Assembly: GCF_024171955.1 (NCBI RefSeq) | Contig: NZ_JAMTCS010000005.1 | Location: 186,001-250,000, forward strand | DNA: 64,000 nucleotides | Direction of reading: 5' to 3' | Source: Promicromonospora thailandica | GTDB taxonomy: Bacteria; Actinomycetota; Actinomycetes; Actinomycetales; Cellulomonadaceae | Shown: positions 47,112-61,751 of the stretch, in pieces | Layout of the letters: each line of letters starts with the position of its first letter | Position numbering within the stretch: position 1 is the stretch's first letter | Translations under genes and position numbers: made by a program | Notes under the pieces: generated by a model | Seen by the model: the letters and a program-made list of their open reading frames with translations, nothing else | Database searches by the model: none | Told to the model about the DNA's origin: nothing

Positions 47112-47187
47112 GCGCCTGTAGCTCAGTGGATAGAGCACCGCTCTCCTAAAGCGGGTGTCGGCAGTTCGAGTCTGCCCAGGCGCACCA
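47112..47187 (+). tRNA. tRNA-Arg (anticodon CCT), left edge of the mobile element
   Basis: Acceptor GCGCCTG pairs with CAGGCGC, the D-arm is GCTC...GAGC, the anticodon stem CCGCT/AGCGG encloses loop CTCCTAA (anticodon CCT), and the T-arm is GGCAG-TTCGAGT-CTGCC; discriminator A at 47184 and CCA encoded at 47185-47187. The serine recombinase gene ends inside it on the opposite strand. GC content drops right after its 3' end, so it is the likely integration target. Confidence 0.95.
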
Positions 47188-48898
47188 AATCAGTGACTTT
47201 CAAACTTCCACCCCCTGCAACAGGGGTGGCAAGTTCCCACCGAAGCCCCCCGGTAGCGCCCAACGCTCCGGGGGTATTCGCGTTGGCTTCGTTGTCGGCG
47301 ATGTTGTCCAGGACCTCCGCCATGGACGGTGCGCCCTGCCCGTTCTTCTCCTCAATCACTCGGCCGACGTCGAGGACGTTGTCGGCAAGGAGCGTGGCGA
47401 ACGGTTCGGCGTACTCGCCTTGGATGCTGGCCTCGTCGATGTAGAGGTGGGTGAAGAACGCCTGGTTGAAGAGTCGGCGAAGGCGGGGCTCAGCCTCGAC
47501 GTACGCGGCGTAGCAATCACGGGCTAGATCGAGTGCGCGGGCGAGGTTCGCGTTGATCACGTTGAGTGTCGTCGCCGCAGCGTTCAGTCTTGCCTCGATG
47601 GCGGTGAGCTGGTCGGTGATGCGCTGTTGCTCACCGGCGATTAGGTCCATCGGCACTGCGCCCGTGTAGATCGCGTCCAGCAACTTCTTGCGCTGGTTGT
47701 TGAGCTTGATCTTCTCTGCCGCTAGGTGCCTCTGCTCGTCCTCCGCCTCTTTGCGGTGTGCTGCGATCTCAAGCTTCAACCCTGCCTCGATCGCGTCTCG
47801 AAGCTCGGGGGCTAGACGCACGGTGGCCCAGTAGTCCTCGACCAACTCTTCGAGCTTTGTCACAAGCATGGCCTTGCGGGTACAGGAGGTCCGCTTCTGA
47901 TGCCTCCCAAGGCACACGAAGTACGGATAGATCGTTCCAGATGGGTTCTTGGCGTTCGTGATGATCAGGCGACTGCCGCAGCTCCCGCAGAACACGCTCG
48001 ACTTCAGATAGTGGTTGTGCTCGCGTTGCTTCTCTCCGGCCGCGTGCGAGGCAAGCACATCTTGAACCTTCTGCCAGGTGATCGAGTCGATGAGTGGCGT
48101 GTGATGGCCAGGGTAGAGGACACCCTGATAGGTGACTTCGCCCTTGTAGTAGGGGTTCGTGAGGATGCCGTGCAGCCCGTTGGGACCGATCGCCCGGGAG
48201 GGCAACTTTGGGGTTCGCCTGGTGGTCAGCCCTCTGGCTTCAAGCTCGTTCGTCATAGAACGGAGCGTCCACTCGTCGGTGGCGAAAGCGGTGAAGGCCC
48301 AGCTGATCAGTTCACCCCGCTCGCGATCGACGATCACGGTGCGTACCTCACGCCCATCGCTGGTTCGCTCCGACACGTTGATGTACCCCAGCGGTGCCCT
48401 GCCGGGCGTGCCGCCCGACATGGCCTTCTGGCTCATCCCCTTGTGGACCTCAGTCGCAAGGTTGCGTGAGTAAAACTCTGCAATCGAGGACATGATGCCG
48501 TGCAGCAACATGCCGGAAGGCGTCTCATCGATGTTCTCAGTGGCGGAGACCAGCTTTGCGCCAGCCTTCGTGATCGCCATCGTAATTCCGACGTCATCCA
48601 CCCGGTTCCTCGCGAGGCGATCCACCTTGTGGACAAGCACGTAGTCCACCGGGTTCACGGTGAGGTAGGCCAGCATCCGCTTGAGGTCGGGGCGGTCGGC
48701 AGATTTGGCTGACTCGCCGGCGTCTACGAACTCCTCGATGATCACCGCCCCTAGGCTCTCAGCCTTTCGTCGGTTAGCCTCGCGCTGTGCGGGGATGGAG
48801 AAGCCCTCCACCTGGCCGCCCTTCTCCGCCTGCTCCTTCGTCGATACGCGAAGGTAGGAGACTCCCGTCTTCATGGTCTGGGTCGCGTCGTCGGCCAT
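47123..48898 (-). CDS. Large serine recombinase (integrase) reading into the tRNA gene
   Basis: This is 591 residues from ATG 48898 (GGGGAGGAGGG upstream). The resolvase domain has VSYLRVSTKEQ (catalytic Ser19), VDRLARNRVD and SEFYSRNL-like SIAEFYSRNLATEV. The recombinase domain carries SRAIGPNGLHGILTNPYYKGEVTY. The zinc ribbon is CGSCGSRLIIT...YFVCLGRHQKRTSC, and a coiled-coil lies at about 400-480. The last 18 or so residues (RLGRLELPTPALGERCSIH) are encoded by the antisense strand of tRNA-Arg, so integration supplies the stop codon. It drives integration and, with a directionality factor, excision. Coupled to the pseudo-ImmA gene upstream. Confidence 0.93.
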   Translation of the reverse strand: MADDATQTMKTGVSYLRVSTKEQAEKGGQVEGFSIPAQREANRRKAESLGAVIIEEFVDAGESAKSADRPDLKRMLAYLTVNPVDYVLVHKVDRLARNRVDDVGITMAITKAGAKLVSATENIDETPSGMLLHGIMSSIAEFYSRNLATEVHKGMSQKAMSGGTPGRAPLGYINVSERTSDGREVRTVIVDRERGELISWAFTAFATDEWTLRSMTNELEARGLTTRRTPKLPSRAIGPNGLHGILTNPYYKGEVTYQGVLYPGHHTPLIDSITWQKVQDVLASHAAGEKQREHNHYLKSSVFCGSCGSRLIITNAKNPSGTIYPYFVCLGRHQKRTSCTRKAMLVTKLEELVEDYWATVRLAPELRDAIEAGLKLEIAAHRKEAEDEQRHLAAEKIKLNNQRKKLLDAIYTGAVPMDLIAGEQQRITDQLTAIEARLNAAATTLNVINANLARALDLARDCYAAYVEAEPRLRRLFNQAFFTHLYIDEASIQGEYAEPFATLLADNVLDVGRVIEEKNGQGAPSMAEVLDNIADNEANANTPGALGATGGLRWELATPVAGGGSLKVTDLVRLGRLELPTPALGERCSIH

Positions 48899-49407
48899 CA
48901 CAGCCCTCCTCCCCTTGATGCACATGCACCATGACTCGCGGCCGGATTCCCAGCCGTCTGGTCCTGCTCGATGTGGTCTGCCTCCATGGCAACGTTCGCG
49001 AAGTGGCTCGCCAGGGCGTCCCACTCTGGTTCTCCAAGTTCGCTGCGCTTCTTACGCAGCGGGTGATCCACGATTCGCTTGAGATGCCAGAGCACCGTGA
49101 AGGTCTTCACGTGAGCTGGATCCTCCTCGCGCAAGTGGATATGCCAGCGGTGATTCGCCCAGTAGGTGATTCCCTCGGCGGGCAGACGGGCAACTTGCAC
49201 CACCACGATGCTCGGAATGAGTACTGAGATGCGGGCAGGGAGCTTGTGGATCGCTCCTGCCAAGGCTTCACGCAGCAGGTGCGCCTGCCCCGAGGCGATG
49301 CGGCGCATCTCGGCGGCCGAGGCCGTTCCGGAGTTCCCGAGGTTCCGGAGCGTTGTCAGGAGACCGGTTGGCGAGATAGGGACGGAGCTTTCATTTGTAG
49401 TGATCAC
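48898..49407 (-). CDS. ImmA/IrrE-like protein with degenerate metalloprotease motif
   Basis: This is 169 residues from GTG 49407 (AAGGAGGA upstream). RWHIHLREEDPAHVKTFTVLWHLKRIVDHP aligns position by position with the ImmA/IrrE core FTLAHELGHILLHP: FT, L, I and HP are kept, but HExxH is replaced by WHLKR. EWDALASHFANVAMEA then matches the ExxAxxFAxxLLMP helix. Zinc binding looks lost. It lies between the XRE repressor and the integrase, the same place as immA in ICEBs1-type elements. It probably acts as a non-catalytic partner of the repressor. The family call is by motif and context. Confidence 0.6.
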   Translation of the reverse strand: MITTNESSVPISPTGLLTTLRNLGNSGTASAAEMRRIASGQAHLLREALAGAIHKLPARISVLIPSIVVVQVARLPAEGITYWANHRWHIHLREEDPAHVKTFTVLWHLKRIVDHPLRKKRSELGEPEWDALASHFANVAMEADHIEQDQTAGNPAASHGACASRGGGL

Positions 49408-49963: not shown

Positions 49964-51016
49964 CTATTTGTTGAACACGTACCAGCTCTGGCCGATCTGA
50001 ACGATGTCCCAGGTTTCTCGTGCCATAGCCTCAATGCGGGTCGAGTCCAGCTGGACGTACCCGTTGATTCCTAGGCGGTCTTCGAGCTCCGAGACGGCCC
50101 GCCGCCAATGTCTGATGTCGGTCAGGTCGATGAGCAGTTCGTCCATGCCGGGGTATGTGCCGATGTAGAAGGCGCGGAACCGATCCAGCAGGTCAGAGGC
50201 CCGGGAGTCGGTGTCCGGGAGCGTCAGGAAGGCGCGGAAAGCGTCGCCATGTTCGCGAATGCCCTCGGCAACTTGTGGATGTTCCTCCCGATGCGGGGCC
50301 TCTGCGGGCGGTGATGCATCCGCGTGCGCCACAAGATATTGCTGCAGGCGCACGGCCCAGGTGTGGAGATCGGGCGAGCGCCAGCTGCGCTCTACGAGCC
50401 GCCGACATTCGTCGAGGGCAGCGGGATCAGTCTCACCCGTGTCAGCGAAGCGCCGGATAGCAGCGTCGGGCGGGAGCAGCGGTCCGAGCATGGTCGCGAT
50501 GGCTTGGGCGTCTTCCTGGGATATGGGTTCGCCACGCTCGTCGGCTTCTGCAAACGCGATGCGGAGGTAGGCGCGGACCTGGTCCAGTGGTGTCCCGCCG
50601 ATGGGCACCTCCTCCGCTGGTGGTGGGCCGGGTTCGGGTGCGTCGTCGGACGGCAGGCTGGTGATGTAGCGGTCAAAGTGAGCGATCCACTCCACGATCT
50701 CGGCGTCCCTGGTGCTCGTGTAGATGCTCATCAGCTCGGTGCCGATCATCGGCTTGTCGACGCGGCCGGTGATGGCGAACCGATGCAGGGCGCCGCTCTG
50801 CGGGTCGGGGAGCTCGTTGGCGAGGGCACGAGCTAAGGTGCGCGCGCCCCATTCAGGCACGGGGTTCTCTGTTCCCTCGACCTCACTGATGGCGTCGTAG
50901 ATGACGTCGACGAGTGCGTCGTCCTGGGAGACAGCGCCGGTGAGATCAATCTCGCCGGGCCAGAGGCGTTCCTGTTCGGGGACGTCGTCATCCGGGTTAT
51001 GTGGCGGTTGTTCCAT
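49964..51016 (-). CDS. Hypothetical ICE protein with internal sequence repeats
   Basis: This is 350 residues; ATG 51016 is chosen because AAAGGAGGA lies 7 nt upstream, whereas the ATG at 51022 directly abuts it. The protein is acidic. Two ~60-residue units can be aligned: ARTLARALANELPDPQSGAL-HRFAITGRVD...EIVEWIAHFDRYI and AQAIATMLGPLLPPDAAI-RRFADTGETD...LHTWAVRLQQYL. A weaker third unit is near DAFRAFLTLPDTDSRASDLL. The family is not recognised. It overlaps the replication-relaxation gene by 20 bp and ends the transfer operon. Confidence 0.78.
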   Translation of the reverse strand: MEQPPHNPDDDVPEQERLWPGEIDLTGAVSQDDALVDVIYDAISEVEGTENPVPEWGARTLARALANELPDPQSGALHRFAITGRVDKPMIGTELMSIYTSTRDAEIVEWIAHFDRYITSLPSDDAPEPGPPPAEEVPIGGTPLDQVRAYLRIAFAEADERGEPISQEDAQAIATMLGPLLPPDAAIRRFADTGETDPAALDECRRLVERSWRSPDLHTWAVRLQQYLVAHADASPPAEAPHREEHPQVAEGIREHGDAFRAFLTLPDTDSRASDLLDRFRAFYIGTYPGMDELLIDLTDIRHWRRAVSELEDRLGINGYVQLDSTRIEAMARETWDIVQIGQSWYVFNK

Positions 51017-51872
51017 AGGCATTCCTCCTTTCGGTGGTTACTGGTTGGGTCATCGGGACAGGGTGGTCGGGCGGGTCCGGGGTATCGACCGCGACCACCT
51101 CCTGGAATCGGTCGACGGTCGTGATCCGGAACAGATCCGTCTGAACTGCGGGGTCGGCCGAGAGAGCGGCCTCTAGTGCCTTCTTCCGCCGGTCGTCTGG
51201 CACGACCCACAGGACGGCCGGGAACACGCCGTGCCGATCCTGGTAAGCGCCGGTGGCGGCGTAGCGCTGGTAGACCTTCGCTTTGTTGACAACTTCTGGC
51301 GGATGCTCGGTAGAAAGGTCTGCCTCCACGAACCAGTGCGATTCGTACTCCGCGGTGGCGGTAATGGCGCTCAAGTCAGGCTTGAGCCACTCCCGCGTCC
51401 CGTGCGGGCCGACGAACGAACGCCAGCAGTCCGGTTCGGTCTCCAGATTGAGGAGCTCGATGGCCTCAGTCTCTGCCAGCTCGTGGAGCTGGATGGCGAG
51501 CTCGGCCTTGAGCAGCGTGTGCTTGACGAAGGCGCCCGACGGCTCGACGTACCGGCGACGCTTGGTCTCGCCGTGCATCCGGCGCAGGAGTCGTTCACCA
51601 GTGGCACCGAGCTGCCAGGTAATACCGGTGGAGCCTGCCCGTACCCCGCCGATGCGTCGCATCAGGCGAGCGACCAGGCCATGGTCCTCGAGGCGGGTCA
51701 GGACACGCATCGTCGCGCCGGACGCTGCGCCGAGCGTGGCGTGGCCACGAGCGAAGTGCAGCCGGCGGATATGGGCGGTCGTGAGGAGCCGATGGATGCG
51801 CAGTGACTCCAGCACCGCCAGGTCGCGCTCGGACAGGCGCTCCAGGAGCGCGGAGATGTCCTGGGGGCTCAT
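50997..51872 (-). CDS. Replication-relaxation family protein
   Basis: This is 291 residues from ATG 51872 (CTAGGAGGTACCTC upstream). An N-terminal winged HTH (RDLAVLESLRIHRLLTTAHIRRLHF) is followed by FVKHTLLKAELAIQLHELAE and a nuclease-like or relaxase-accessory half (LKPDLSAITATAEYESHWFVEADLSTEH). This is the pattern of Pfam replication-relaxation proteins of actinobacterial plasmids and ICEs, which cooperate with DNA processing at the origin. It is coupled to its neighbours by overlap. Confidence 0.85.
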   Translation of the reverse strand: MSPQDISALLERLSERDLAVLESLRIHRLLTTAHIRRLHFARGHATLGAASGATMRVLTRLEDHGLVARLMRRIGGVRAGSTGITWQLGATGERLLRRMHGETKRRRYVEPSGAFVKHTLLKAELAIQLHELAETEAIELLNLETEPDCWRSFVGPHGTREWLKPDLSAITATAEYESHWFVEADLSTEHPPEVVNKAKVYQRYAATGAYQDRHGVFPAVLWVVPDDRRKKALEAALSADPAVQTDLFRITTVDRFQEVVAVDTPDPPDHPVPMTQPVTTERRNAYGTTAT

Positions 51873-52075
51873 GAGGTACCTCCTAGCTGGCCTTCGTTGA
51901 CGAGGTTGCAGGAGCTGCGTCTGGCTCGGGGACCCCCGGAACGGGGGTCAGTCCCATCCCAGAAAGGTCCGGACAGGGCCAGTGAGCTGGGACGACCCGA
52001 ACGGGCGGACGTCGTGAACCGAGGGGCGAACCTACGGGCGAGCAGACCGATACGGAGACGACGCGGGAACCTCAT
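51869..52075 (-). CDS. 68-residue Arg-rich protein coupled on both sides
   Basis: This small ORF (MRFPRRLRIGLLARRFAPRF...) overlaps the TraG/VirD4-like gene stop at its start (ATGA) and the replication-relaxation gene start at its end (ATGA). The two overlaps argue that it is translated. It is basic and Ser/Gly-rich with no recognised domain, and may only serve to couple translation, or may bind nucleic acid. Confidence 0.55.
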   Translation of the reverse strand: MRFPRRLRIGLLARRFAPRFTTSARSGRPSSLALSGPFWDGTDPRSGGPRARRSSCNLVNEGQLGGTS

Positions 52076-54261
52076 GGCTGCCTCCGCTTCCTGCCGACCT
52101 GCTCAGCAACAACGGGCGGTGATGCAGCCACCGAGCGTCGCTTCGGTCGGTCTGGCTTAGCGGGCTCTGCGGTCGGCTCGGCTTCCGGCGATGTAGCGCC
52201 GTAGCCAGCACGGCTGGCTGCCCGCACCTCGTCGGAGTCGGTGATGGCGGGTGGAGGCGGCAGCGTCTTGATCAGCGCCCAGCCAGACGGGTGGCCGAGC
52301 GCCACGAGGTTGGCGTAGGCGTGGTATTTCGGGAGCGCCATGAAGTCCTCGGGCGTGAGGTTGCTGGCGAGCTTGGCGGTGTCGCGCGCGTCCTCATATT
52401 CCGTTGAGAACACGATCTTGGAGCGAGCATTCATGTCCACGGCTGAGCGCAAGGCGGGCGGAAACTGGCTGCGGAACTGGGCGGCCAGGAACCACCCCAC
52501 CCCGAGCGAGCGGGAGACGGCCAGGGCGTCCGCCAGCGAGGTTGGGAGGTGGAGAAAGCGCGGCGCCTCGTCCACGACGACCATGCCAGGGCGTTTGGCG
52601 GGGTCCTTCTCCTCGGCGCGCTCCTGGGTGGCCTGCCAGATCTCAGCGACGGCCAGACTGCCGAGCAGGCCCGCGGTGCCAGTACCCACCAAGCCCTCGT
52701 TGAGCGGCATCAGGACGATCTTGTCCTCGCGAAAGAGATTGCGGAGACGGAACTTCCCCGAGCGCTGGTCGAGCATGCGCACCACTGCAGGTCGAAGCAG
52801 GAGCTGCCTCAATTTGTTGAGCGGTGCGGCGATGGCGGCGGCCTGGGACCTCGGGGACTGCGCCTCGTACCAGGCCCAGAAACCACCGAGGGCAAGGTCG
52901 TCCTGGACTTGGGCGGTCTGTTGCCGACGGAAGCGCGAATCGGTGAGTAGCCGGGGTAGATCGATGAGGGTGGCTGATCGATCAGGCGTGCTGGCACGGG
53001 CCAAAGTGCGCAAGGCGGCGCTGAAAATATCTGCCGTCCGAGGGCCCCAGCCATCCGAGAACACAGCTTCGAAGACGGCCAGGATGCCGTCGACGACAAC
53101 GTCCGGGTCCCGGCCGGCGACGTCGAGGGGATTGAAGCCGACCGTCGGGTCCGCGGCGTCCAGGATGACGACGTCTTTGATCCGCTCCTTTGGCATGCGA
53201 GCGAGGATGTCGTCGACGAGCTGCTTCTTCGGGTCGAGGACTGCGACTGGTCGTCCGGCCTTGATGTCCGCCAGGATTAGATGCAGCAGGGTGTTCGTCT
53301 TACCTGATCCGCTCGGCCCGTACGCCACGGCATGGAACGTCTGGTCCGCTGGCGATATGCCGACCTGGCGGTCGTCGCCGGGCGCGGCGCTTGTGGCGAA
53401 GACACGCGGGCTCGTGTGCACGGCGGCGGCTGGGCGTAGCGGCTTGGGGTGTGCGGGCGGTAGTCCCGGCAGATCGTCTCCGCCGATTGGCCAGCCCAGA
53501 AGCCCGATCAGCTCCGTGACGCCTAGGTGTAGCGGCCAGCGCCACGGGAGGCGTACGTCGTTGAGTTGCTTGGCAGGTTGGCGTACCAGGTCGAGCCGGA
53601 CGCCGGGGCTTTGGGCGGTCGAGAGAGCGCCGAGCAGGTTCATGATGAGCCGTCGACGCCGGCCACGGTCCGGGCTAGCCGCACCGATGCGGATCGTGAC
53701 GACAAACCCCGCTTGGGAGAGCCGTTCGCGCAGTCGCAGCTTCGTCTCGGGAGCGGCGGGACGGTTCCCGCCAGTGAGGGCCTGGGCGAGCGTCATACCG
53801 GGCTCTACGGCACCTCGCGGGACGGGCCGGGGCGCGTGGTGTGGTCCGAGAACCACCTGGAGGACGGCGACCTCCCCGAGCTTGAGCTTGGCGGCCATGG
53901 CTGAGAGAAGCGACCGTGTGGTGGCCTCGGGAGCATCGGTTCGCAGTGGCAAACCACCCGGCTTGAGTCGGAGGCGGGCGGCCATCTCGACATCCGGTCG
54001 ACCATGCTGGCCGCCGCCCTTGAGCTTGGTGAGCAGGCTGCCGGGGATGAGGTCAGCGAGCAGGCGTCGCAGGCGGTGAACGTCTGTGGGGCGGCATCCG
54101 AGCAGGTGCTGCACACCGCTGCTGTCCGCCCGCAGTTCGAGCGCGACGCGAGGTGCGTCTCGTTCGGAAGCGATGCGGGTGAGGAACGCGCCGATCTGCG
54201 GGGGATCAAGTGGCCGCGGGAGATGGAGCTGAGAGAAGACGAACTCGGTCGGATTAGTCAT
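52072..54261 (-). CDS. TraG/VirD4-like conjugative coupling ATPase
   Basis: This is 729 residues. Walker A is HAVAYGPSGSGKTNTLLHL near residue 315; then VAVLDPKKQLVDDIL, DVVILDAADPTVGFNPLD, a Walker B MVVVDEAPRFLHLP near 580, and SRSLGVGWFLAAQFRSQFP (the TraG/HerA Q-motif region). It belongs to the TraG/TraM-recognition-type group of FtsK-HerA ATPases that pump or couple DNA to a type IV secretion channel. There is no N-terminal membrane helix, so it probably associates with a membrane partner. It is the main gene of the transfer operon. Confidence 0.88.
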   Translation of the reverse strand: MTNPTEFVFSQLHLPRPLDPPQIGAFLTRIASERDAPRVALELRADSSGVQHLLGCRPTDVHRLRRLLADLIPGSLLTKLKGGGQHGRPDVEMAARLRLKPGGLPLRTDAPEATTRSLLSAMAAKLKLGEVAVLQVVLGPHHAPRPVPRGAVEPGMTLAQALTGGNRPAAPETKLRLRERLSQAGFVVTIRIGAASPDRGRRRRLIMNLLGALSTAQSPGVRLDLVRQPAKQLNDVRLPWRWPLHLGVTELIGLLGWPIGGDDLPGLPPAHPKPLRPAAAVHTSPRVFATSAAPGDDRQVGISPADQTFHAVAYGPSGSGKTNTLLHLILADIKAGRPVAVLDPKKQLVDDILARMPKERIKDVVILDAADPTVGFNPLDVAGRDPDVVVDGILAVFEAVFSDGWGPRTADIFSAALRTLARASTPDRSATLIDLPRLLTDSRFRRQQTAQVQDDLALGGFWAWYEAQSPRSQAAAIAAPLNKLRQLLLRPAVVRMLDQRSGKFRLRNLFREDKIVLMPLNEGLVGTGTAGLLGSLAVAEIWQATQERAEEKDPAKRPGMVVVDEAPRFLHLPTSLADALAVSRSLGVGWFLAAQFRSQFPPALRSAVDMNARSKIVFSTEYEDARDTAKLASNLTPEDFMALPKYHAYANLVALGHPSGWALIKTLPPPPAITDSDEVRAASRAGYGATSPEAEPTAEPAKPDRPKRRSVAASPPVVAEQVGRKRRQP

Positions 54262-54481
54262 TGCGAGGTGCCCTCCTCGACTCGTTGGCTCTCGCGCCAG
54301 TGCCTCGGGCCTTGCGGGCGGCCTGTTCAGCTTGGGCTTCCCGCTCAGCTTCGGCCCGTGCCAGTTCGATGAGCGCTCTGGAGAGCTTGCGAAGGTCCGG
54401 GGGATTGCGGCGGACGCCTCGTACTCTGAGTTGACGCTCGATGCGCCTCCTGTTGATCTGGTTCTTCTTTTTGGACGACAA
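54254..54481 (-). CDS. Small basic protein, first gene of the transfer operon
   Basis: This is 75 residues from TTG 54481, which sits 7 nt behind AAAGGAGG; no ATG fits this Shine-Dalgarno. The sequence is KKKNQINRRRIERQLRVRGVRRNPPDLRKLSRALIELARAEAERE. It is highly basic with a C-terminal Ala/Glu/Arg helix. No known domain; a DNA-binding or accessory role is possible. It overlaps the TraG/VirD4-like gene by 8 bp. Confidence 0.7.
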   Translation of the reverse strand: MSSKKKNQINRRRIERQLRVRGVRRNPPDLRKLSRALIELARAEAEREAQAEQAARKARGTGARANESRRAPRND

Positions 54482-54507
54482 AGACCACCTCCTTTCTTTG
54501 GCGGGGG

Positions 54508-54524
54508 CGCTGACTGTAATCAGC
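54508..54524. promoter_or_regulatory. Element operator TGCTGA-N5-GTCAGC, site 2 (transfer operon)
   Basis: On the minus strand GCTGATTACAGTCAGC follows the promoter and precedes the Shine-Dalgarno of the 54481 gene, followed by GCCCCC as at site 3. Binding would block transcription just after the start site, so it would silence the transfer operon. Confidence 0.75.
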
Positions 54525-54537
54525 ATCCACTTACCTC

Positions 54538-54623: not shown

Positions 54624-54866
54624 CTAGTACTTTGACCGCTGCCAACGAATGATCGCGGCGGTGACCCACGTCCCGGCGATGAGGACGGCGGCGCCAGCTA
54701 GCCAGTGTGTGATTGGCCGGAGCCAGGCGACGGCGAGATTGAGCACGATCGCCGTGCCAAGCAGCAGCAGGCTGGCGCGGAAGATCCAGGCGAAGGGATC
54801 GTTCGGTAGCGAGCTCTTGTCCTCTCCCACGAGTGCCTCACCGGGCCTTCTGGTCGTGGCTGGCAT
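54624..54866 (-). CDS. Small two-helix membrane protein
   Basis: This is 80 residues with a cytoplasmic start (MPATTRRPGEALVGEDKS), two membrane helices (FAWIFRASLLLLGTAIVLNLAV and HWLAGAAVLIAGTWVTAAII) and a short basic end. It overlaps the MT-A70 gene by 29 bp, so it is cotranscribed and coupled. No family is recognised. Its place between a methyltransferase and the transfer genes suggests an ICE accessory membrane protein. Confidence 0.75.
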   Translation of the reverse strand: MPATTRRPGEALVGEDKSSLPNDPFAWIFRASLLLLGTAIVLNLAVAWLRPITHWLAGAAVLIAGTWVTAAIIRWQRSKY

Positions 54867-55425
54867 CGCTTGGCACGGGGTAGCCCGGCAGGCTGATGTC
54901 GGCGTCGACCTCGTTGCCCCATACGAACCACTCCCGATTGCTCGGCGGCCGACGTCGGGCGAACAGCTCGAGATAGGGCCCGTCCGAGATGCGCTCGACG
55001 ATGGCGAACTGCTCCTCGGGCTTGTGGCTGTGGCCCTGGACGGGTGCGTTTATCCAGGTTGGCTGGGAACGGAAGTTCACCGGTGCCTTGCCTCGCGTAG
55101 CAAACAACAGATGCTCGGTGGCATGGCGCAGGTAGTTGCCGAGGCCGAGTCGGAACTTGATCCACGTGATGGGTGCGCGCACCGTAAAGCCCCAGGCTTC
55201 GGCGACGTCGTAACCGTCGCGCAGGGTGCCGTTGGTGACCCAGAGCCAGAGGTGAGCATTCTCCTCGGCCAGGTCCCGGATGGGCATTGCCTTGATCCGC
55301 TCCAGACTCATCAGCGGGTAGTGCTGCGACGCTCCTCGTGCGCCCCGCTGGTCGGTTTGCCATGGCGGATCTGCCAGGATGGTGCGGAACTTCGCCGGTA
55401 CTGGGTTGATGCTGTTGGTTGTCAT
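54838..55425 (-). CDS. MT-A70-type adenine DNA/RNA methyltransferase
   Basis: This is 195 residues from ATG 55425. FRTILADPPWQTDQRG carries the MT-A70 DPPW catalytic motif at about residues 18-22. ENAHLWLWVTNGTLRDGYDVAEAWGFTVRAPITWIK and HLLFATRGKAP complete the family core. Such enzymes make N6-methyladenine and are common on phages and ICEs, where they may protect from restriction. No cognate endonuclease is adjacent, so it is an orphan methyltransferase. Confidence 0.9.
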   Translation of the reverse strand: MTTNSINPVPAKFRTILADPPWQTDQRGARGASQHYPLMSLERIKAMPIRDLAEENAHLWLWVTNGTLRDGYDVAEAWGFTVRAPITWIKFRLGLGNYLRHATEHLLFATRGKAPVNFRSQPTWINAPVQGHSHKPEEQFAIVERISDGPYLELFARRRPPSNREWFVWGNEVDADISLPGYPVPSDASHDQKAR

Positions 55426-55512: not shown

Positions 55513-55560
55513 CCAGCGGTTCGGGCGAACTGTCGAGCGAAGATTCGCCCGAACCGCTGG
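55513..55560. terminator. Perfect 17-bp hairpin after the vWA operon
   Basis: CCAGCGGTTCGGGCGAA (55513-55529) and its exact complement (55544-55560) flank a 14-nt loop, in the gap 55426-55628. The vWA operon (minus strand) ends just upstream, and the MT-A70 gene begins just downstream, so the hairpin most likely terminates the former. Confidence 0.72.
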
Positions 55561-55628: not shown

Positions 55629-56336
55629 CTACAGGGGCTCGGCGACGTGGCTGCCGGGGCGGTTTGCGATCAGCCCGGCGAAGATCGCCCGCGCCACGAC
55701 GCCTGGCCGCGATTCGTACGTGACCACCGTCGTGGTGACGCCCTCGTTCAGGACGCCCGCGGGGGGCCGGCCGCCCAGCACGACGGCGTGCACCGTTCCG
55801 GGGAAGGCCGCCAGGTCGGACAACACCGCGCCGGGGTCGCTGTCCGTGAGGAAGAAGTCGGAGAGCACGACGAGGGTTGCCTCGTGCTCCGGGTGACGTT
55901 CCGTCAGCGCCCTCGCCCGTGTCAGGCTGGGGCCAAGATCGCTCGTCCCTGCACCATCCGCAGGCGGATGCAGGCCAACACGAAGGCCGACGAGGCCTTG
56001 CCGTGTCAGAGGTGTCGGTGCGACCTCGCCACTTGAGGGGGTGTCGAAGTGGATGATCGCACCCAGCTCACGAGGCGAGCCCCTGTGTGCGACGACCGAG
56101 AACGCATGCTCCACCTCGGCATACCGGTTCGAGAGCGCATCGGTGCCCCGGGGACCCATGACCGAACCGGAGTTGTCGAAGAGGGCGATGAGCAGTGTGG
56201 GCACGGCGGCCGGCCTTCCGGGATCACCGAGCCTGTACGACGGGCCGGCCGGCCCCGCCGACCTGCTCGGCATCGGGGTACCGAGCAGGCGGCTAGGCAG
56301 CAGGCCGCTCGAAAGCAGCGTGGGCCGGGTGCTCAT
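55629..56336 (-). CDS. vWA-domain protein (third gene of vWA operon)
   Basis: This 235-residue cytoplasmic protein has a complete MIDAS: LLIALFDNSGSVMG (DxSxS, near residue 52), GTSDLGPSLTRA (Thr loop) and TLVVLSDFFLTDSDPG (Asp). It ends with VTTTVVTYESRPGVVARAIFAGLIANR. No other domain is seen, so it likely binds a protein ligand in a metal-dependent way. It overlaps the membrane protein gene by 4 bp and is cotranscribed with it. Confidence 0.85.
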   Translation of the reverse strand: MSTRPTLLSSGLLPSRLLGTPMPSRSAGPAGPSYRLGDPGRPAAVPTLLIALFDNSGSVMGPRGTDALSNRYAEVEHAFSVVAHRGSPRELGAIIHFDTPSSGEVAPTPLTRQGLVGLRVGLHPPADGAGTSDLGPSLTRARALTERHPEHEATLVVLSDFFLTDSDPGAVLSDLAAFPGTVHAVVLGGRPPAGVLNEGVTTTVVTYESRPGVVARAIFAGLIANRPGSHVAEPL

Positions 56337-57433
56337 GCGCTCACGCTCCGACGAGACCGCCGCCCGATCACCCCGCTCTGCTCACCGGCCGCAAACCCGT
56401 GCCCGAACACCTGCGGGTTTCGCCGCTGCGCCTGCCAGGACAAGGAGTCCACTCGCTTGCCGGCGGCCCCGGCCCGATACGTGCTCTCCTCGCGGATCGA
56501 GCGCGCCATCTCCTCCGAGGCGGCCTTGTCTCGGCCGGCGGCCGAGCGGGTGAGCTCGAGGTAGTGCGTCTCGGCCCCTCGAACCCGCTTGGCAAGCGTG
56601 CCGAGCAGGTCCGCCACCTCATCCGCACTGGCGTACCCCAGTAGCCCTGATGCGATCGCCGTTGCGAGCGCGAACAGCCCGAAGGTGAGGCCGGTGAGGC
56701 CACCCTCGATACCCGCGCGGAGCGCGAAGATCCCAAGGGCGACCAGCAACGCCACCAGCAGCGACAGCCCACCCATCAGCTTGGTGATGCCGAGACCGTC
56801 GCCCCCTGGGACGAACAGACGCCGGTAGCGCTGCTCCTCCTTGGTGAGGCTGTCCGGATCACGCTGCCGTGTCCGCGCCATGCGGATGTCCTTGAGCTCG
56901 GACCCCACCAGGCCAGCGCAGGCTGCTGCCAGACCGGCCGCCAGCGCCTGGCCGAAGGCAACGTACGGAACGTCGCCGTTGATGATCGCCGCCGACCAGA
57001 CACCCGCGGTATCCCCCAGGACCAGGATCGGCCAGCAGATCCAGTACCGCAGTTTCCCGCCCGACTCGCGCCGCACGTACGAGCCGAGCACCTGCGTCGC
57101 CCGCTGATACTCCGCATGCGCCTCACGAACCTCGGCCTCGCGCTGGGTCAGGAGGAAGTCGATGCCAGCCACCTGGCGGTCCAGACCGCGTGCCTCCACA
57201 CCGTAGGGGCGCGCCTCGTCTTCGCCTTCAGCTCGCCAGAGAAGCTCCTGCTCTTCCGCGAGGGCGTGGTACTCCTGCTCGACGTAGCTCGTGCCGACGT
57301 TCGAGGGCCGCGGGTGCGCACCCACCTCGTCCAGCCGAGGCAGCGAGATCGCCTCGACCTGCTCCGTCCAGGCGTCCATGGAGCTCGCCGGTCGGACGTT
57401 GCGCAGCCCGGCGAACCGGCCCAGGCGCCTCAT
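56333..57433 (-). CDS. Membrane protein between two vWA genes
   Basis: This is 366 residues. A long N-terminal helical cytoplasmic part (YVEQEYHALAEEQELLWRAEG, coiled-coil-like) is followed by four membrane helices in two pairs (about 130-175 and 215-262: YWICWPILVLGDTAGVWSAA; GGLSLLVALLVALGIFAL). A C-terminal helical cytoplasmic tail ends QVFGHGFAAGEQSG. No family is recognised. It overlaps the genes on both sides by 4 bp (start and stop), so it is an integral part of the operon and could be the membrane scaffold for the two vWA proteins. Confidence 0.78.
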   Translation of the reverse strand: MRRLGRFAGLRNVRPASSMDAWTEQVEAISLPRLDEVGAHPRPSNVGTSYVEQEYHALAEEQELLWRAEGEDEARPYGVEARGLDRQVAGIDFLLTQREAEVREAHAEYQRATQVLGSYVRRESGGKLRYWICWPILVLGDTAGVWSAAIINGDVPYVAFGQALAAGLAAACAGLVGSELKDIRMARTRQRDPDSLTKEEQRYRRLFVPGGDGLGITKLMGGLSLLVALLVALGIFALRAGIEGGLTGLTFGLFALATAIASGLLGYASADEVADLLGTLAKRVRGAETHYLELTRSAAGRDKAASEEMARSIREESTYRAGAAGKRVDSLSWQAQRRNPQVFGHGFAAGEQSGVIGRRSRRSVSA

Positions 57434-58398
57434 CGGTTCACCCCGGCGTACTCGGTGACCGAGAGGCAGTTCTCGGCACCGGTCTTGGCGCAGAGGGCGT
57501 CGTAGAGCGAGACCAGCCCCTCCACGACCTCCGAGGACGGTGGTGATCCAGCCACTCGTCCCAGGCCGGCGACGGCCACCGAGGCACCCGCCAGCTCCGG
57601 CACGCTCGTCTTCTCGGCCAGCGACGTCGCTTCCTGTTCGCTCAGCGCCTTCTTACCGAGCTTGACCCCGCCGACGTTCTGGAAGCCGTCCGTGAAGATG
57701 TACAGGTGGAGGTGGGCGTCGCCGTCGAGCTGCCGGGCCCACTCGGCAGCCAGCCGGTACTGGGCGGTGATGTCGCTACCGCCGCCGGGCAGCGCCGCGA
57801 CTGCTGGCTCGTAGGCTGCCCGGATCTCGGCCATGGTCTCCTCGACGATCTGCGGCACGCGCTTGAGCTTGGCGTTGTCGGTGGCACCGTCCAGCCGCAG
57901 GGGCTGGTCGAAGATGGTGGCCGTGGCGGCGCTGGACGCGGAGAACACCTGCACCCGCAGGTGCCCCGAGCAGATCGCCGTCCGACGGACGATCCCCTCG
58001 ACAGCGGCCATGCGCTCGGCCGCAATCTCCGACGAGGCACTCGACCCCGTGCCGTCGATCTCGACCGAGGAGGCCGGAGCTGCAACGGGGTCACACGAAG
58101 CGAGGATCTCCTGGTTCTCGGCCAGCTCGCCGTGGGTCGAGCCCACCCCGCACGCCGCGAGTGCGGCGACCAGGAGCAGTGCGATCGGCGCAGCCACGAC
58201 CGCCGGCTTCTGACTACGCTTGCGCGCGATCCGAGCCTGACGGCGCTCCTTGACTTCGTTGGTGGCGGGGACGACCGAGGAGTTGGTCGGAAGCACCGAG
58301 CGCAGGTCCCGCGCCAAGTGGCGGAGCTCCTTCTCCTGCCGGGCGCGCTGACGATCCTCGATGCTGTGGATGATGCGTGTGTAGCGGTTCCTAGACAT
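57430..58398 (-). CDS. Membrane-anchored vWA-domain protein (first gene of vWA operon)
   Basis: This is 322 residues from ATG 58398 (AAGGAGG upstream). A basic cytoplasmic N-terminus (about 70 residues) precedes a membrane segment with a lipobox-like end (PIALLLVAALAACGVGS), so most of the protein is outside. The vWA domain has SSVEIDGTGSSAS (MIDAS DxTxS variant), GGGSDITAQYRLA (Thr) and LHLYIFTDGFQNVGG (Asp). The gene is transcribed divergently from the STAND-like gene. The three genes 58398-55629 form a tight operon. Confidence 0.84.
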   Translation of the reverse strand: MSRNRYTRIIHSIEDRQRARQEKELRHLARDLRSVLPTNSSVVPATNEVKERRQARIARKRSQKPAVVAAPIALLLVAALAACGVGSTHGELAENQEILASCDPVAAPASSVEIDGTGSSASSEIAAERMAAVEGIVRRTAICSGHLRVQVFSASSAATATIFDQPLRLDGATDNAKLKRVPQIVEETMAEIRAAYEPAVAALPGGGSDITAQYRLAAEWARQLDGDAHLHLYIFTDGFQNVGGVKLGKKALSEQEATSLAEKTSVPELAGASVAVAGLGRVAGSPPSSEVVEGLVSLYDALCAKTGAENCLSVTEYAGVNR

Positions 58399-58433
58399 GA
58401 GAGCCTCCTTCACGGAATCGAGGCGGCTGATGC

Positions 58434-58545: not shown

Positions 58546-60519
58546 ATGAGCAACCCGCAGCCAGGCCGAGACGACGTTGGCGACCTCGACGCTCGGCTCC
58601 TTGCCGAGCTGGCCTTCTTGCGCAGGAACCCGTTCGGTGGCGGCCCGAAGGTTGACGAACGGCTCGCCGCTACGCAGACACTCTCCGCGCTCGCCGAGCA
58701 GCTCTACGGGCCAGCGACCAAGCTCTCCGATCGCGACCAACAGCAACGAGCACTTGTCAGGAGTGCCGCCAAACGTATGGAGGGCACCGGTGGCGAGGCA
58801 CTTCTTCGCCTCCTCGGTTTGCACGCGGAGACCGTGAATATAAGAAATGTGGGGCCTCGAAGTGAACTCGCTGGTCCCTATGCCCACCCAGACCCGCACT
58901 TTGGGAAAACGTTCGGGCGCATCGAGTACTGGAAACCGTTTCTCCAACTTGCCGTGATAGCGATTCAACAGACAGCGCAGGCGGTTCCTCGCCGCAGAGA
59001 CGGCGACAGCGAACCTCTTCGTGATCTCGCCCTGCCGATTGTCAACCGCGAATGGACCGATATCATCGTCGAATTGGTCAAGTCGTCCGAGGCTGGACAC
59101 CAGGCCCATGCGCTTTACGGTCTACCCGGCAGCGGTCGGTACACGCTATGCGACCAGGCCCTCGCTCGGGTCACGCCCCAGAACCGTCACATCGTCCGCG
59201 TGGACGAACCACTTACCTACCACCGTGACTTGCTCGACATGCTCGAAACATACGGTATCCACGCAGATTCGTGGAGCCTTGCCGCCTGCGAGCGCGAGTT
59301 CCGAAGGCTGGTCGAAAACGCCCCTAGTTCGCTGGGTGGTGTGATCCTGCACGGCGGAAAGACGGCCGACCAGTTCGCGCACTTGCTACCGCGGCGGCCA
59401 AGAACGCACCTACTCCTTACTACAGAGCGTCCCTCTAAATCTCGCATGGACCACGTCTATGAGCTGGATGCGCCATCATTCATGCCCGAGGAAGCCGTTA
59501 CACTCTTGGCTTTCGGTCATCAGAATGCCGAGCCGCGAGACTTGTCGCTATTGGCTGAACAGCTCTACCGCCACGTGGGGCTCATCGCGGTCGCGGCTCG
59601 ATCCCGAATTACGGTAGCCACGTTGATCAGACGGCTCCGTCGCAACCGCACCGCGACAGTACTTCAGCTTGCCTCACTGGGCGGCATGGATCTTCGCCGA
59701 TACGCGCGGCAGGTAATCCGCGATATTGGCGACGATGCGGATGCGCTCTTTGCTCTTGATGTCGCGTTGTGGCTTACGGGTAACGACAGTTGGAACCTCT
59801 ACCATGCGGTGGGCTTCCTCTTGCCCGGTCGCGTCTCGCCCGCGCGTGTCAATGTTGCCCTCGATCGGTTTAATAACGCCTGTGGCTACGTAAGCTATTG
59901 GGGAAGCAGTCCGCTTGTCCCCATCCTCCGTCAGCTACGTGCCGAGCAAATGACGCCGCTGCTCCACGCTCTGGCAAGCCTCGAGGGCCACGAACGCATT
60001 GGACTCAACGGTGATCGTTGGCCAGTTGCGCTGTCCGTTTGGCGACGCTCAGGAGAAACGCCCCCAGTCCTGAACATGGGTACATACGAAACATCCGTCA
60101 CGGTTTGCCATGCTACTGGTGGGGGGCACGATTTCGCAGCTCTCTTCCATGGGCCAGATGGGCGACCACACGCTCAGCTCTACGAATGGGCACACCTGGG
60201 GGAACGGACCCTGGAGGTGTATGAGGATGGGGAGCAACTACCGCAAAGCATCCTGCTCGATCCGGATAACGATACGAGGTGGCCCGAAGTCACGCGCTAC
60301 ATGCTGGGCTTGTTGACGGGCCCGGACCTGTCACGACTGTCCGAACTTGTAGGCGATATACGAGTCGACTACTATGCAGAGCCGGACTACGAGGATTTGC
60401 ACCCTGAAATCGAACTGGAATGGATTGACCTCGACGACATCACGCCAGAAATGGCCACGATGTGGGATTCGAGACCTGATGAATCAAGTGATCCGCATTC
60501 GGGCGAGATTTTTGGGTAG
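58546..60519 (+). CDS. STAND/NB-ARC-like protein with degenerate P-loop
   Basis: This is 657 residues from ATG 58546. Residues 175-330 look like a STAND NTPase: QAHALYGLPGSGRYTLCDQALA (P-loop with GKT changed to GRY), GVILHGGKTADQF in the Walker B place without the Asp, HLLLTTERPSKSRMDHVYELDAPSFMPEEAVTLLAFGHQ (sensor and GxP-like region). The C-terminal ~200 residues are acidic with IELEWIDLDDITPEM. The gene is clearly less GC-rich than the transfer genes. The frame is intact, so it is a functional gene, perhaps a nucleotide-binding sensor that no longer hydrolyses ATP; a defence role is inferred. Confidence 0.68.
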   Translation: MSNPQPGRDDVGDLDARLLAELAFLRRNPFGGGPKVDERLAATQTLSALAEQLYGPATKLSDRDQQQRALVRSAAKRMEGTGGEALLRLLGLHAETVNIRNVGPRSELAGPYAHPDPHFGKTFGRIEYWKPFLQLAVIAIQQTAQAVPRRRDGDSEPLRDLALPIVNREWTDIIVELVKSSEAGHQAHALYGLPGSGRYTLCDQALARVTPQNRHIVRVDEPLTYHRDLLDMLETYGIHADSWSLAACEREFRRLVENAPSSLGGVILHGGKTADQFAHLLPRRPRTHLLLTTERPSKSRMDHVYELDAPSFMPEEAVTLLAFGHQNAEPRDLSLLAEQLYRHVGLIAVAARSRITVATLIRRLRRNRTATVLQLASLGGMDLRRYARQVIRDIGDDADALFALDVALWLTGNDSWNLYHAVGFLLPGRVSPARVNVALDRFNNACGYVSYWGSSPLVPILRQLRAEQMTPLLHALASLEGHERIGLNGDRWPVALSVWRRSGETPPVLNMGTYETSVTVCHATGGGHDFAALFHGPDGRPHAQLYEWAHLGERTLEVYEDGEQLPQSILLDPDNDTRWPEVTRYMLGLLTGPDLSRLSELVGDIRVDYYAEPDYEDLHPEIELEWIDLDDITPEMATMWDSRPDESSDPHSGEIFG

Positions 60520-61316: not shown

Positions 61317-61646
61317 CTACTCGCCAGAGGTCTTGCCTCGGCGGGTTGCCGGACGTGAAGGAGGAGTCTCCTTCGCCTCGTCCGTTGCGGTGTTGCCGCC
61401 GAAGATCGCCGTGATGGCGTCGCGTCGGGTCTGAGCTTCGCGCTCAATGCCGGCACGGATGGCCTCGGCCTTCTCGAGCGTGGCGGGATCGGACTTGGTC
61501 TTCTCGATCCAGTGCTCCAGGGCCAGGCGGATCTCCTCAGTGGCAGTGCGACCCGTGATCTGGGCAACCACGTCCAACTGAGCGCGCAGCTCGTCGGTGA
61601 TCCGGACTGCCAGCGTGCGGAGCTGGCTTCCTGACGGCTCGCTCAT
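61317..61646 (-). CDS. Ribbon-helix-helix DNA-binding protein
   Basis: This is 109 residues from ATG 61646 (GAGGAGG upstream). LRTLAVRITDELRAQLDVVAQITGRTATEEIRLALEHWIEK at residues 8-48 is an RHH (CopG/Arc-type) domain: the strand (TLAVRIT) and two helices. The helical tail has KAEAIRAGIEREAQTRRDAITAIFGG. It is likely a small regulator or an antitoxin-like repressor, or a relaxosome accessory protein. No toxin gene is adjacent on the same transcript. Confidence 0.85.
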   Translation of the reverse strand: MSEPSGSQLRTLAVRITDELRAQLDVVAQITGRTATEEIRLALEHWIEKTKSDPATLEKAEAIRAGIEREAQTRRDAITAIFGGNTATDEAKETPPSRPATRRGKTSGE

Positions 61647-61751
61647 AGCGAACCACCTCCTCGGTGAATTGCGGCCGACGAACAGGGGACTGTTCATCTC
61701 GGAAGCCGCAGGGCACCGACGAAGCGATCGAGGCCTGTAAGCAACTGGAGG

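Follow-up and report, generated by a model that had tools for sequence, protein, structure and literature searches.

The window analysed here, a stretch of 64,000 nucleotides from Promicromonospora thailandica, contains three genes, A, B, and C, which the evidence supports as a real co-inherited unit for a predicted extracytoplasmic vWA protein, a multi-helix membrane protein, and a cytoplasmic vWA protein. The trio occupies an exchangeable slot next to the coupling-protein and relaxase genes of a mobile element. We tentatively interpret it as a trans-envelope module that serves transfer in IME-like actinobacterial elements with their own relaxase and VirD4 protein, a reading to which we give not quite an even chance.

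Organization and Distribution of the Gene Trio

The three genes were organized as a single operon with ATGA overlaps (Table 1), and the 4-bp overlaps that the initial annotation had described were borne out at both junctions (57430/57433 and 56333/56336). An alternative start of the gene A reading frame is possible at a GTG codon at position 58413. Like the initial annotation, which had recognized no named system in the trio, we found none, and no description of the trio was recovered in our literature search.

Table 1. Features of the element region in the window.
Feature	Position	Strand	Description
tRNA-Arg(CCT), integration site	47112..47187	+	Element spans from here to ~84349, past the window end
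Large serine recombinase (integrase)	47123..49024	-	PF00239, PF07508, PF13408
Replic_Relax protein	50997..51872	-	Putative MobC-class relaxase; PF13814, E 5.8e-44
VirD4-type coupling protein	52072..54261	-	PF02534, E 8.9e-9
s90	54254..54526	-	Small basic protein preceding VirD4; homologs in L078-L082 and L089
Small two-TM protein	54624..54866	-	Common to trio and cassette elements
MT-A70 family adenine methyltransferase	54838..55425	-	PF05063, E 1.8e-27; start placed at an ATG within a longer frame
Hairpin	55513..55560	-	17-bp stem and 14-nt loop, upstream of MT-A70, ~70 bp beyond the end of C
Gene C	55629..56336	-	Predicted cytoplasmic vWA protein, MIDAS DxSxS ... D
Gene B	56333..57433	-	About 4 TM helices, long cytoplasmic helices on either side (predicted)
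Gene A	57430..58398	-	Predicted extracytoplasmic protein modelled as a vWA fold, lipobox signal (LAAC)
N region of A	58186..58398	-	About 70 aa, basic; fused to A in the window

A search for the trio elsewhere, as the initial annotation had suggested, showed that the genes co-occur at 7 further loci, so few that the co-occurrence counts given here are to be read as counts over a small sample. Six of them (L016 to L021), with a sequence identity of 54% to 65% for the B protein, were identified by scanning 84,980 species genomes for gene B, and the order A-B-C was present at all 6. Their hosts were Streptomyces (3 loci), Actinomadura (2 loci), and an Acidimicrobiaceae MAG (1 locus). The seventh locus, L089, is located on an IMG/VR contig and was found with a profile of A; it encodes A, B, and C proteins at 34%, 33%, and 36% identity. 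At first, this locus was retrieved only with the A profile; once L089 had been included in the profiles of B and C, these retrieved it as well. With the window counted, the order was A-B-C in 8 of 8 loci, and the 4-bp overlap was present between B and C in all 8 and between A and B in all but L021 (7 of 8), where these overlap counts depend on start codons that we chose. L089 contained the overlap at both junctions.

Gene B was present in only 1 of 199 relatives, which was the genome of the window itself, and the B profile matched 2 of 396 genomes from the phylum (G000 and G286). It was also present in 1 of 199 sampled genomes (G833) from a genus that was taken to be Streptomyces by coordinates; the coordinates of the G833 match are those of L020, and it is therefore not an additional locus. 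Weak genome matches were obtained at L009 to L015 (E 0.001 to 0.009), only one of which, L009, recurred with B (E 0.004). The plasmid records searched contained no match to A, B, or C, and the phage records searched contained no match to B. Nothing was found in the first searches of viral contigs, nor did a VirD4 query match any of the viral contigs.

Predicted Structure and Location of the Proteins

The A protein had no match above cut-off to a curated family in Pfam, NCBIfam, PHROGs, or PADLOC, and it models as a vWA fold. Its AF2 model had a pLDDT of 79.6, and in a comparison with the PDB (VIA) the 50 solved structures listed were all vWA-type folds, with Z scores of 12.7 to 14.5, including 8jtk_B (Z 14.5, 2.9 Å over 171 residues). 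Foldseek was run for A only.

Complete MIDAS residues had been ascribed to both vWA proteins. They were confirmed in the window, with DGTGS, SDIT, and TDG in A and DNSGS, TSDLG, and SDFF in C, but the motif is not strict in the relatives of A, where both Asp residues were invariant in 9 of 9 sequences while the Ser and Thr positions varied; the A protein of L019, for example, contains DGTGF in place of DGTGS. Residues D79, D173, D201, and G202 (alignment numbering) were invariant in A in all 9 sequences.

The predicted location of A outside the membrane and of C in the cytosol was likewise upheld, with one strong hydrophobic segment in A (residues 67 to 85) and none in C, but A is probably an exported lipoprotein and not just a bitopic protein. 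A lipobox Cys after the hydrophobic segment and three further Cys residues were invariant in 9 of 9 sequences, and A may possibly contain disulfides. The n-region before the lipobox is unusually long in the window protein, about 64 amino acids, and the lipid processing is a prediction. In six relatives, the N region is instead encoded by a separate small gene, and A begins at its own signal segment. The N homologs in L016 and L018 to L021 were 36% to 43% identical in sequence, and the one in L017 matched the N protein of L018 with 48% identity.

For gene B, nothing above cut-off was found in Pfam, NCBIfam, PHROGs, or PADLOC, and the match to a known, unrelated family, by which the initial annotation would have been refuted, did not appear. 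Three of the four membrane helices proposed for B corresponded to clear segments (residues 158-176, 219-237, and 248-266), whereas the fourth was weaker and was seen in the model as helices 126-139 and 142-150. In this model, which was of low confidence (pLDDT 64, pTM 0.41), long helices at residues 48-83, 85-119, and 298-338 flank the helices at 126-150, 156-191, 213-243, and 245-269. The first TM helix contains an acidic residue, which was Asp in 8 of 9 sequences and Glu in L089. The idea of a MotA/ExbB-like stator was considered for B; there was no Pfam match at E 1, and the model was too weak for a fold comparison. The VIA fold matches for B were generic long-helix matches to a weak model and were not used.

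The assignment of C as a vWA protein is based on a match to PF13519 (E 0.0023, 18.9 bits) below the cut-off of 27 bits and on the DxSxS ... D motif, and nothing was found above cut-off in NCBIfam, PHROGs, or PADLOC. Residues D54, S56, S58, and D160 of C were invariant in 8 of 8 loci, while the T position was variable.

The Trio-Bearing Element

The trio is located in an element of 37 kb, which is inserted in the gene for tRNA-Arg(CCT). On the left flank, the matches to same-genus genomes stopped near the end of the tRNA-Arg gene in 7 of 8 genomes and ran past it in G006, where another insertion occupies the tRNA-Arg site. The right edge at ~84349 was judged from the empty site in G008. No exact repeat of at least 9 bases was found between the end of the tRNA-Arg gene and the right edge that could represent attL and attR. 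The true start of the integrase is probably further in, since the conserved part begins at about residue 51.

In G006, the insertion at this tRNA-Arg gene (L043, G006:C2:957001-977000) is not the one seen in the window, and it has an XRE / Asn-synthase / PCMT block in common with the window element. Genes for Asn synthase, a transglutaminase-like protein, and a PCMT-type methyltransferase were located in a row at L024 3669-7296, which we take to resemble cargo in the form of a lasso-type peptide cluster. A divergent protein of 657 amino acids is encoded beside the trio (window 58546-60519) and had no match in Pfam, PADLOC, or PHROG.

The Replic_Relax protein qualifies by sequence as a putative relaxase, PF13814 being listed as a MobC-class relaxase in the part of PMC5357655 that was available to us. 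No N-terminal TM segment was predicted for the VirD4-type coupling protein in the window, and the small two-TM protein may be a split-off membrane anchor for it. A search of the whole genome for VirB4 (AAA_10) gave no match on contig C5 and a single match on contig C7. A VirB4-type ATPase is encoded at 8834-11362 of L088 (G000:C7:186001-206000) within a cluster of host-like composition, and this cluster on C7 is a possible resident helper channel. With its own relaxase and VirD4 protein and no VirB4, the element is IME-like by the usual definition, as worded in the accessible sections of PMC9513070.

Linkage to Transfer Genes and an Exchangeable Slot

The trio was followed by the coupling-protein and relaxase genes in the same orientation at 7 of 7 loci (the window, L016, L017, L018, L020, L021, and L089); the contig that contains L019 stops just past gene C. 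The distant locus L089 has retained the trio, s80, s90, VirD4, and Replic_Relax, with identities of 33% to 39% for the large proteins, but lacks MT-A70, which shows that the link between the trio and the coupling-protein and relaxase genes is independent of MT-A70. It also makes it difficult to view the trio as random cargo, since the association with VirD4 and Replic_Relax is seen even at this distance.

A VirD4 match was identified in 22 of the 199 sampled Streptomyces-genus genomes, 7 of which contained a close lineage (61% to 90% identity), with a truncated copy in G838. The remaining 15 genomes had best matches of 31% to 40% identity, and two of the distant loci were inspected, L084 (G888) and L085 (a second locus of G834). 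Of the elements found in this way, five Streptomyces sister elements were read (L078 to L082); they have kept MT-A70, s90, VirD4 (58% to 60% identical to the window), and Replic_Relax, and in these the slot upstream of MT-A70 was occupied by a cassette of about four small genes and no trio. The trio proteins had no match in L078 to L082, and the tested cassette proteins had no match in the trio loci; in the compared loci, the trio and the cassette are mutually exclusive. The presence of the five sister elements also led us to reject the trio as an indispensable core of the element. In the VirD4 trees, the trio and the cassette elements were separated by one change (97/100 with L089 and 100/100 with other outgroups), whereas the Replic_Relax tree with L089 contained two changes of type and is unreliable because of its long branches.

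A perfect 17-bp hairpin had been described at the end of the operon. The hairpin is present, outside the coordinates given in that annotation, but it does not mark the operon end: it is not followed by a T-run and is conserved in elements without the trio, and we therefore rejected it as a terminator of the trio. It was found at the same place in 12 elements, of which seven contain the trio (the window and L016 to L021) and five do not (L078 to L082), and the hairpin is thus a conserved structure of the element backbone. The loop was conserved as TTCG..CG, with TTTYC on the 3' side, and 11 of the 17 pairs change on both sides somewhere in the alignment. Pairing was possible in 81.9% of cells, as compared to 70.5% in shuffled alignments, none of which reached as high a value (0/500), and 23% to 45% when the stem was slid. 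The poorly paired rows were those of L017, L018, L020, and L021, with 9 to 12 of 17 pairs. No Rfam family matched the hairpin, which is perhaps an oriT or an RNA leader for MT-A70.

Possible Functions of the Trio

Since the coupling protein and the relaxase are its constant partners, we assign the trio to transfer, and we infer that the three proteins act in this process as one complex. The topology and the gene order make it plausible that the trio links an event outside the cell to a partner on the inside, as proposed in the initial annotation. The A protein would be exported and lipid-anchored on the external face of the membrane, where its vWA domain would bind a partner; B would cross the membrane, with its long cytoplasmic helices; and C would dock via its MIDAS onto a peptide inside the cell. 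Together, they would form a trans-envelope complex serving the transfer of the element DNA, most likely by recognizing or stabilizing the contact with the recipient, or by matching the relaxosome and coupling protein of the element with a type IV channel that is borrowed. Running counter to the transfer reading are the two changes of type in the long-branched Replic_Relax tree and also the five sister elements, which manage with a VirD4 protein of 58% to 60% identity and Replic_Relax but no trio; the trio is accordingly not indispensable to this design for transfer, unless the cassette does the same job.

A bolder proposal, which we regard as rather doubtful, is that the trio represents a new mating device, in which the exported vWA lipoprotein would sense the recipient and, via B with its four helices, the acidic residue in the first of them, and its long cytoplasmic stalk, the cytoplasmic vWA protein would recruit or release the anchorless coupling protein. 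In that case, a mobilizable element that borrows a type IV channel would supply the transmembrane contact switch itself. A trio that is tied to a coupling protein and a relaxase over a large sequence distance, and that sits in an exchangeable slot, offers a defined target for deletion, and between the Streptomyces elements with the trio and those with the cassette, nature has already carried out a swap. A candidate origin of transfer is also available for this element family, in the form of the covarying hairpin.

The slot itself brings to mind exclusion or immunity, whereby the trio would mark the surface of the host and keep a second, related element from entering. Modules of this kind are exchanged between related elements, and this would account for the two alternative contents of the slot, the trio or a cassette for small membrane proteins, in line with the single switch between the two mutually exclusive contents on the VirD4 tree, and a surface lipoprotein with a membrane protein resembles known exclusion pairs. 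However, exclusion as it is known usually involves one or two small proteins, a cytoplasmic vWA partner would not be expected, and the trio has been retained with the same coupling-protein clade across a wide host range. We consider this explanation unlikely.

We give somewhat less credence to a general envelope complex with a mechanical, stress-related, or wall-linked task, recruited from chromosomes and with no specific role in transfer. A distant A-B pair without C was identified in genome G286 (L022, 7761-10620, minus strand), in which the third gene codes for an OmpA-domain protein and no recognized transfer gene was found in the surrounding 18 kb, suggesting that the A-B core can serve a role other than transfer. 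The acidic residue in the first TM helix of B is also compatible with such a complex. Yet, the chromosomal A-B pair was encountered very seldom (the B profile found it in 1 of 198 genomes from the order and the A profile in 1 of 247 from the class) and lacks C, whereas the trio on the elements is tied to transfer genes.

Finally, mobile elements carry defense genes, the varied cargo of this element includes an AAA_13 protein and DNA methylases in addition to MT-A70, and vWA proteins are known from conflict systems (accessible part of PMC7159879), but we judge anti-phage or other defense cargo to be the least probable explanation, given that A, B, and C had no PADLOC match at E 0.01 (2023 library), that no MoxR partner was found among the element proteins scanned and no effector-like or nuclease domain was recognized, and that the fixed position beside the transfer genes, even at 33% to 36% identity, is unlike that of cargo.

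Comparison with Known Systems

As described in the sections of PMC7159879 that we could consult, the MoxR-vWA ternary systems are similar to the trio in having a peptide-binding vWA MIDAS domain and a small set of genes. They differ in that neither a MoxR AAA+ ATPase nor an effector was recognized among the proteins scanned here, and in that the trio contains two vWA proteins, one on either side of a membrane protein. The element was not classified as an AICE, since no Pfam match to FtsK_SpoIIIE was found among the element proteins scanned, a set without the short ORFs at 61317-61697 and L024 5542-5850; compared to the AICEs of the TraB/FtsK type, as presented in the accessible text of PMC3218068, a VirD4-type coupling protein and a relaxase replace TraB.

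A design in which an IME encodes both a VirD4 coupling protein and a MobC relaxase has been described, according to the portion of PMC5704250 at hand. The window element is similar to such IMEs in its integrase, its PF13814 relaxase, its VirD4 T4CP, and the absence of VirB4 from the element. It differs in being actinobacterial, with a serine integrase that targets tRNA-Arg, and in that the T4CP has no predicted N-terminal TM segment; furthermore, the family described here adds either the A-B-C trio or the small-gene cassette.

SGI1 is a mobilizable island with its own TraN, TraG, and TraH subunits, which are fitted to a borrowed channel. The subversion of MPF by SGI1 is mentioned in the same portion of PMC5704250. 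The likeness to the trio would be one of working principle only, in that mating subunits for the surface and the membrane are brought along, while the proteins and the hosts are different. With this qualification, an island of the SGI1 type that brings its own mating subunits may be the closest working analog of the element described here.
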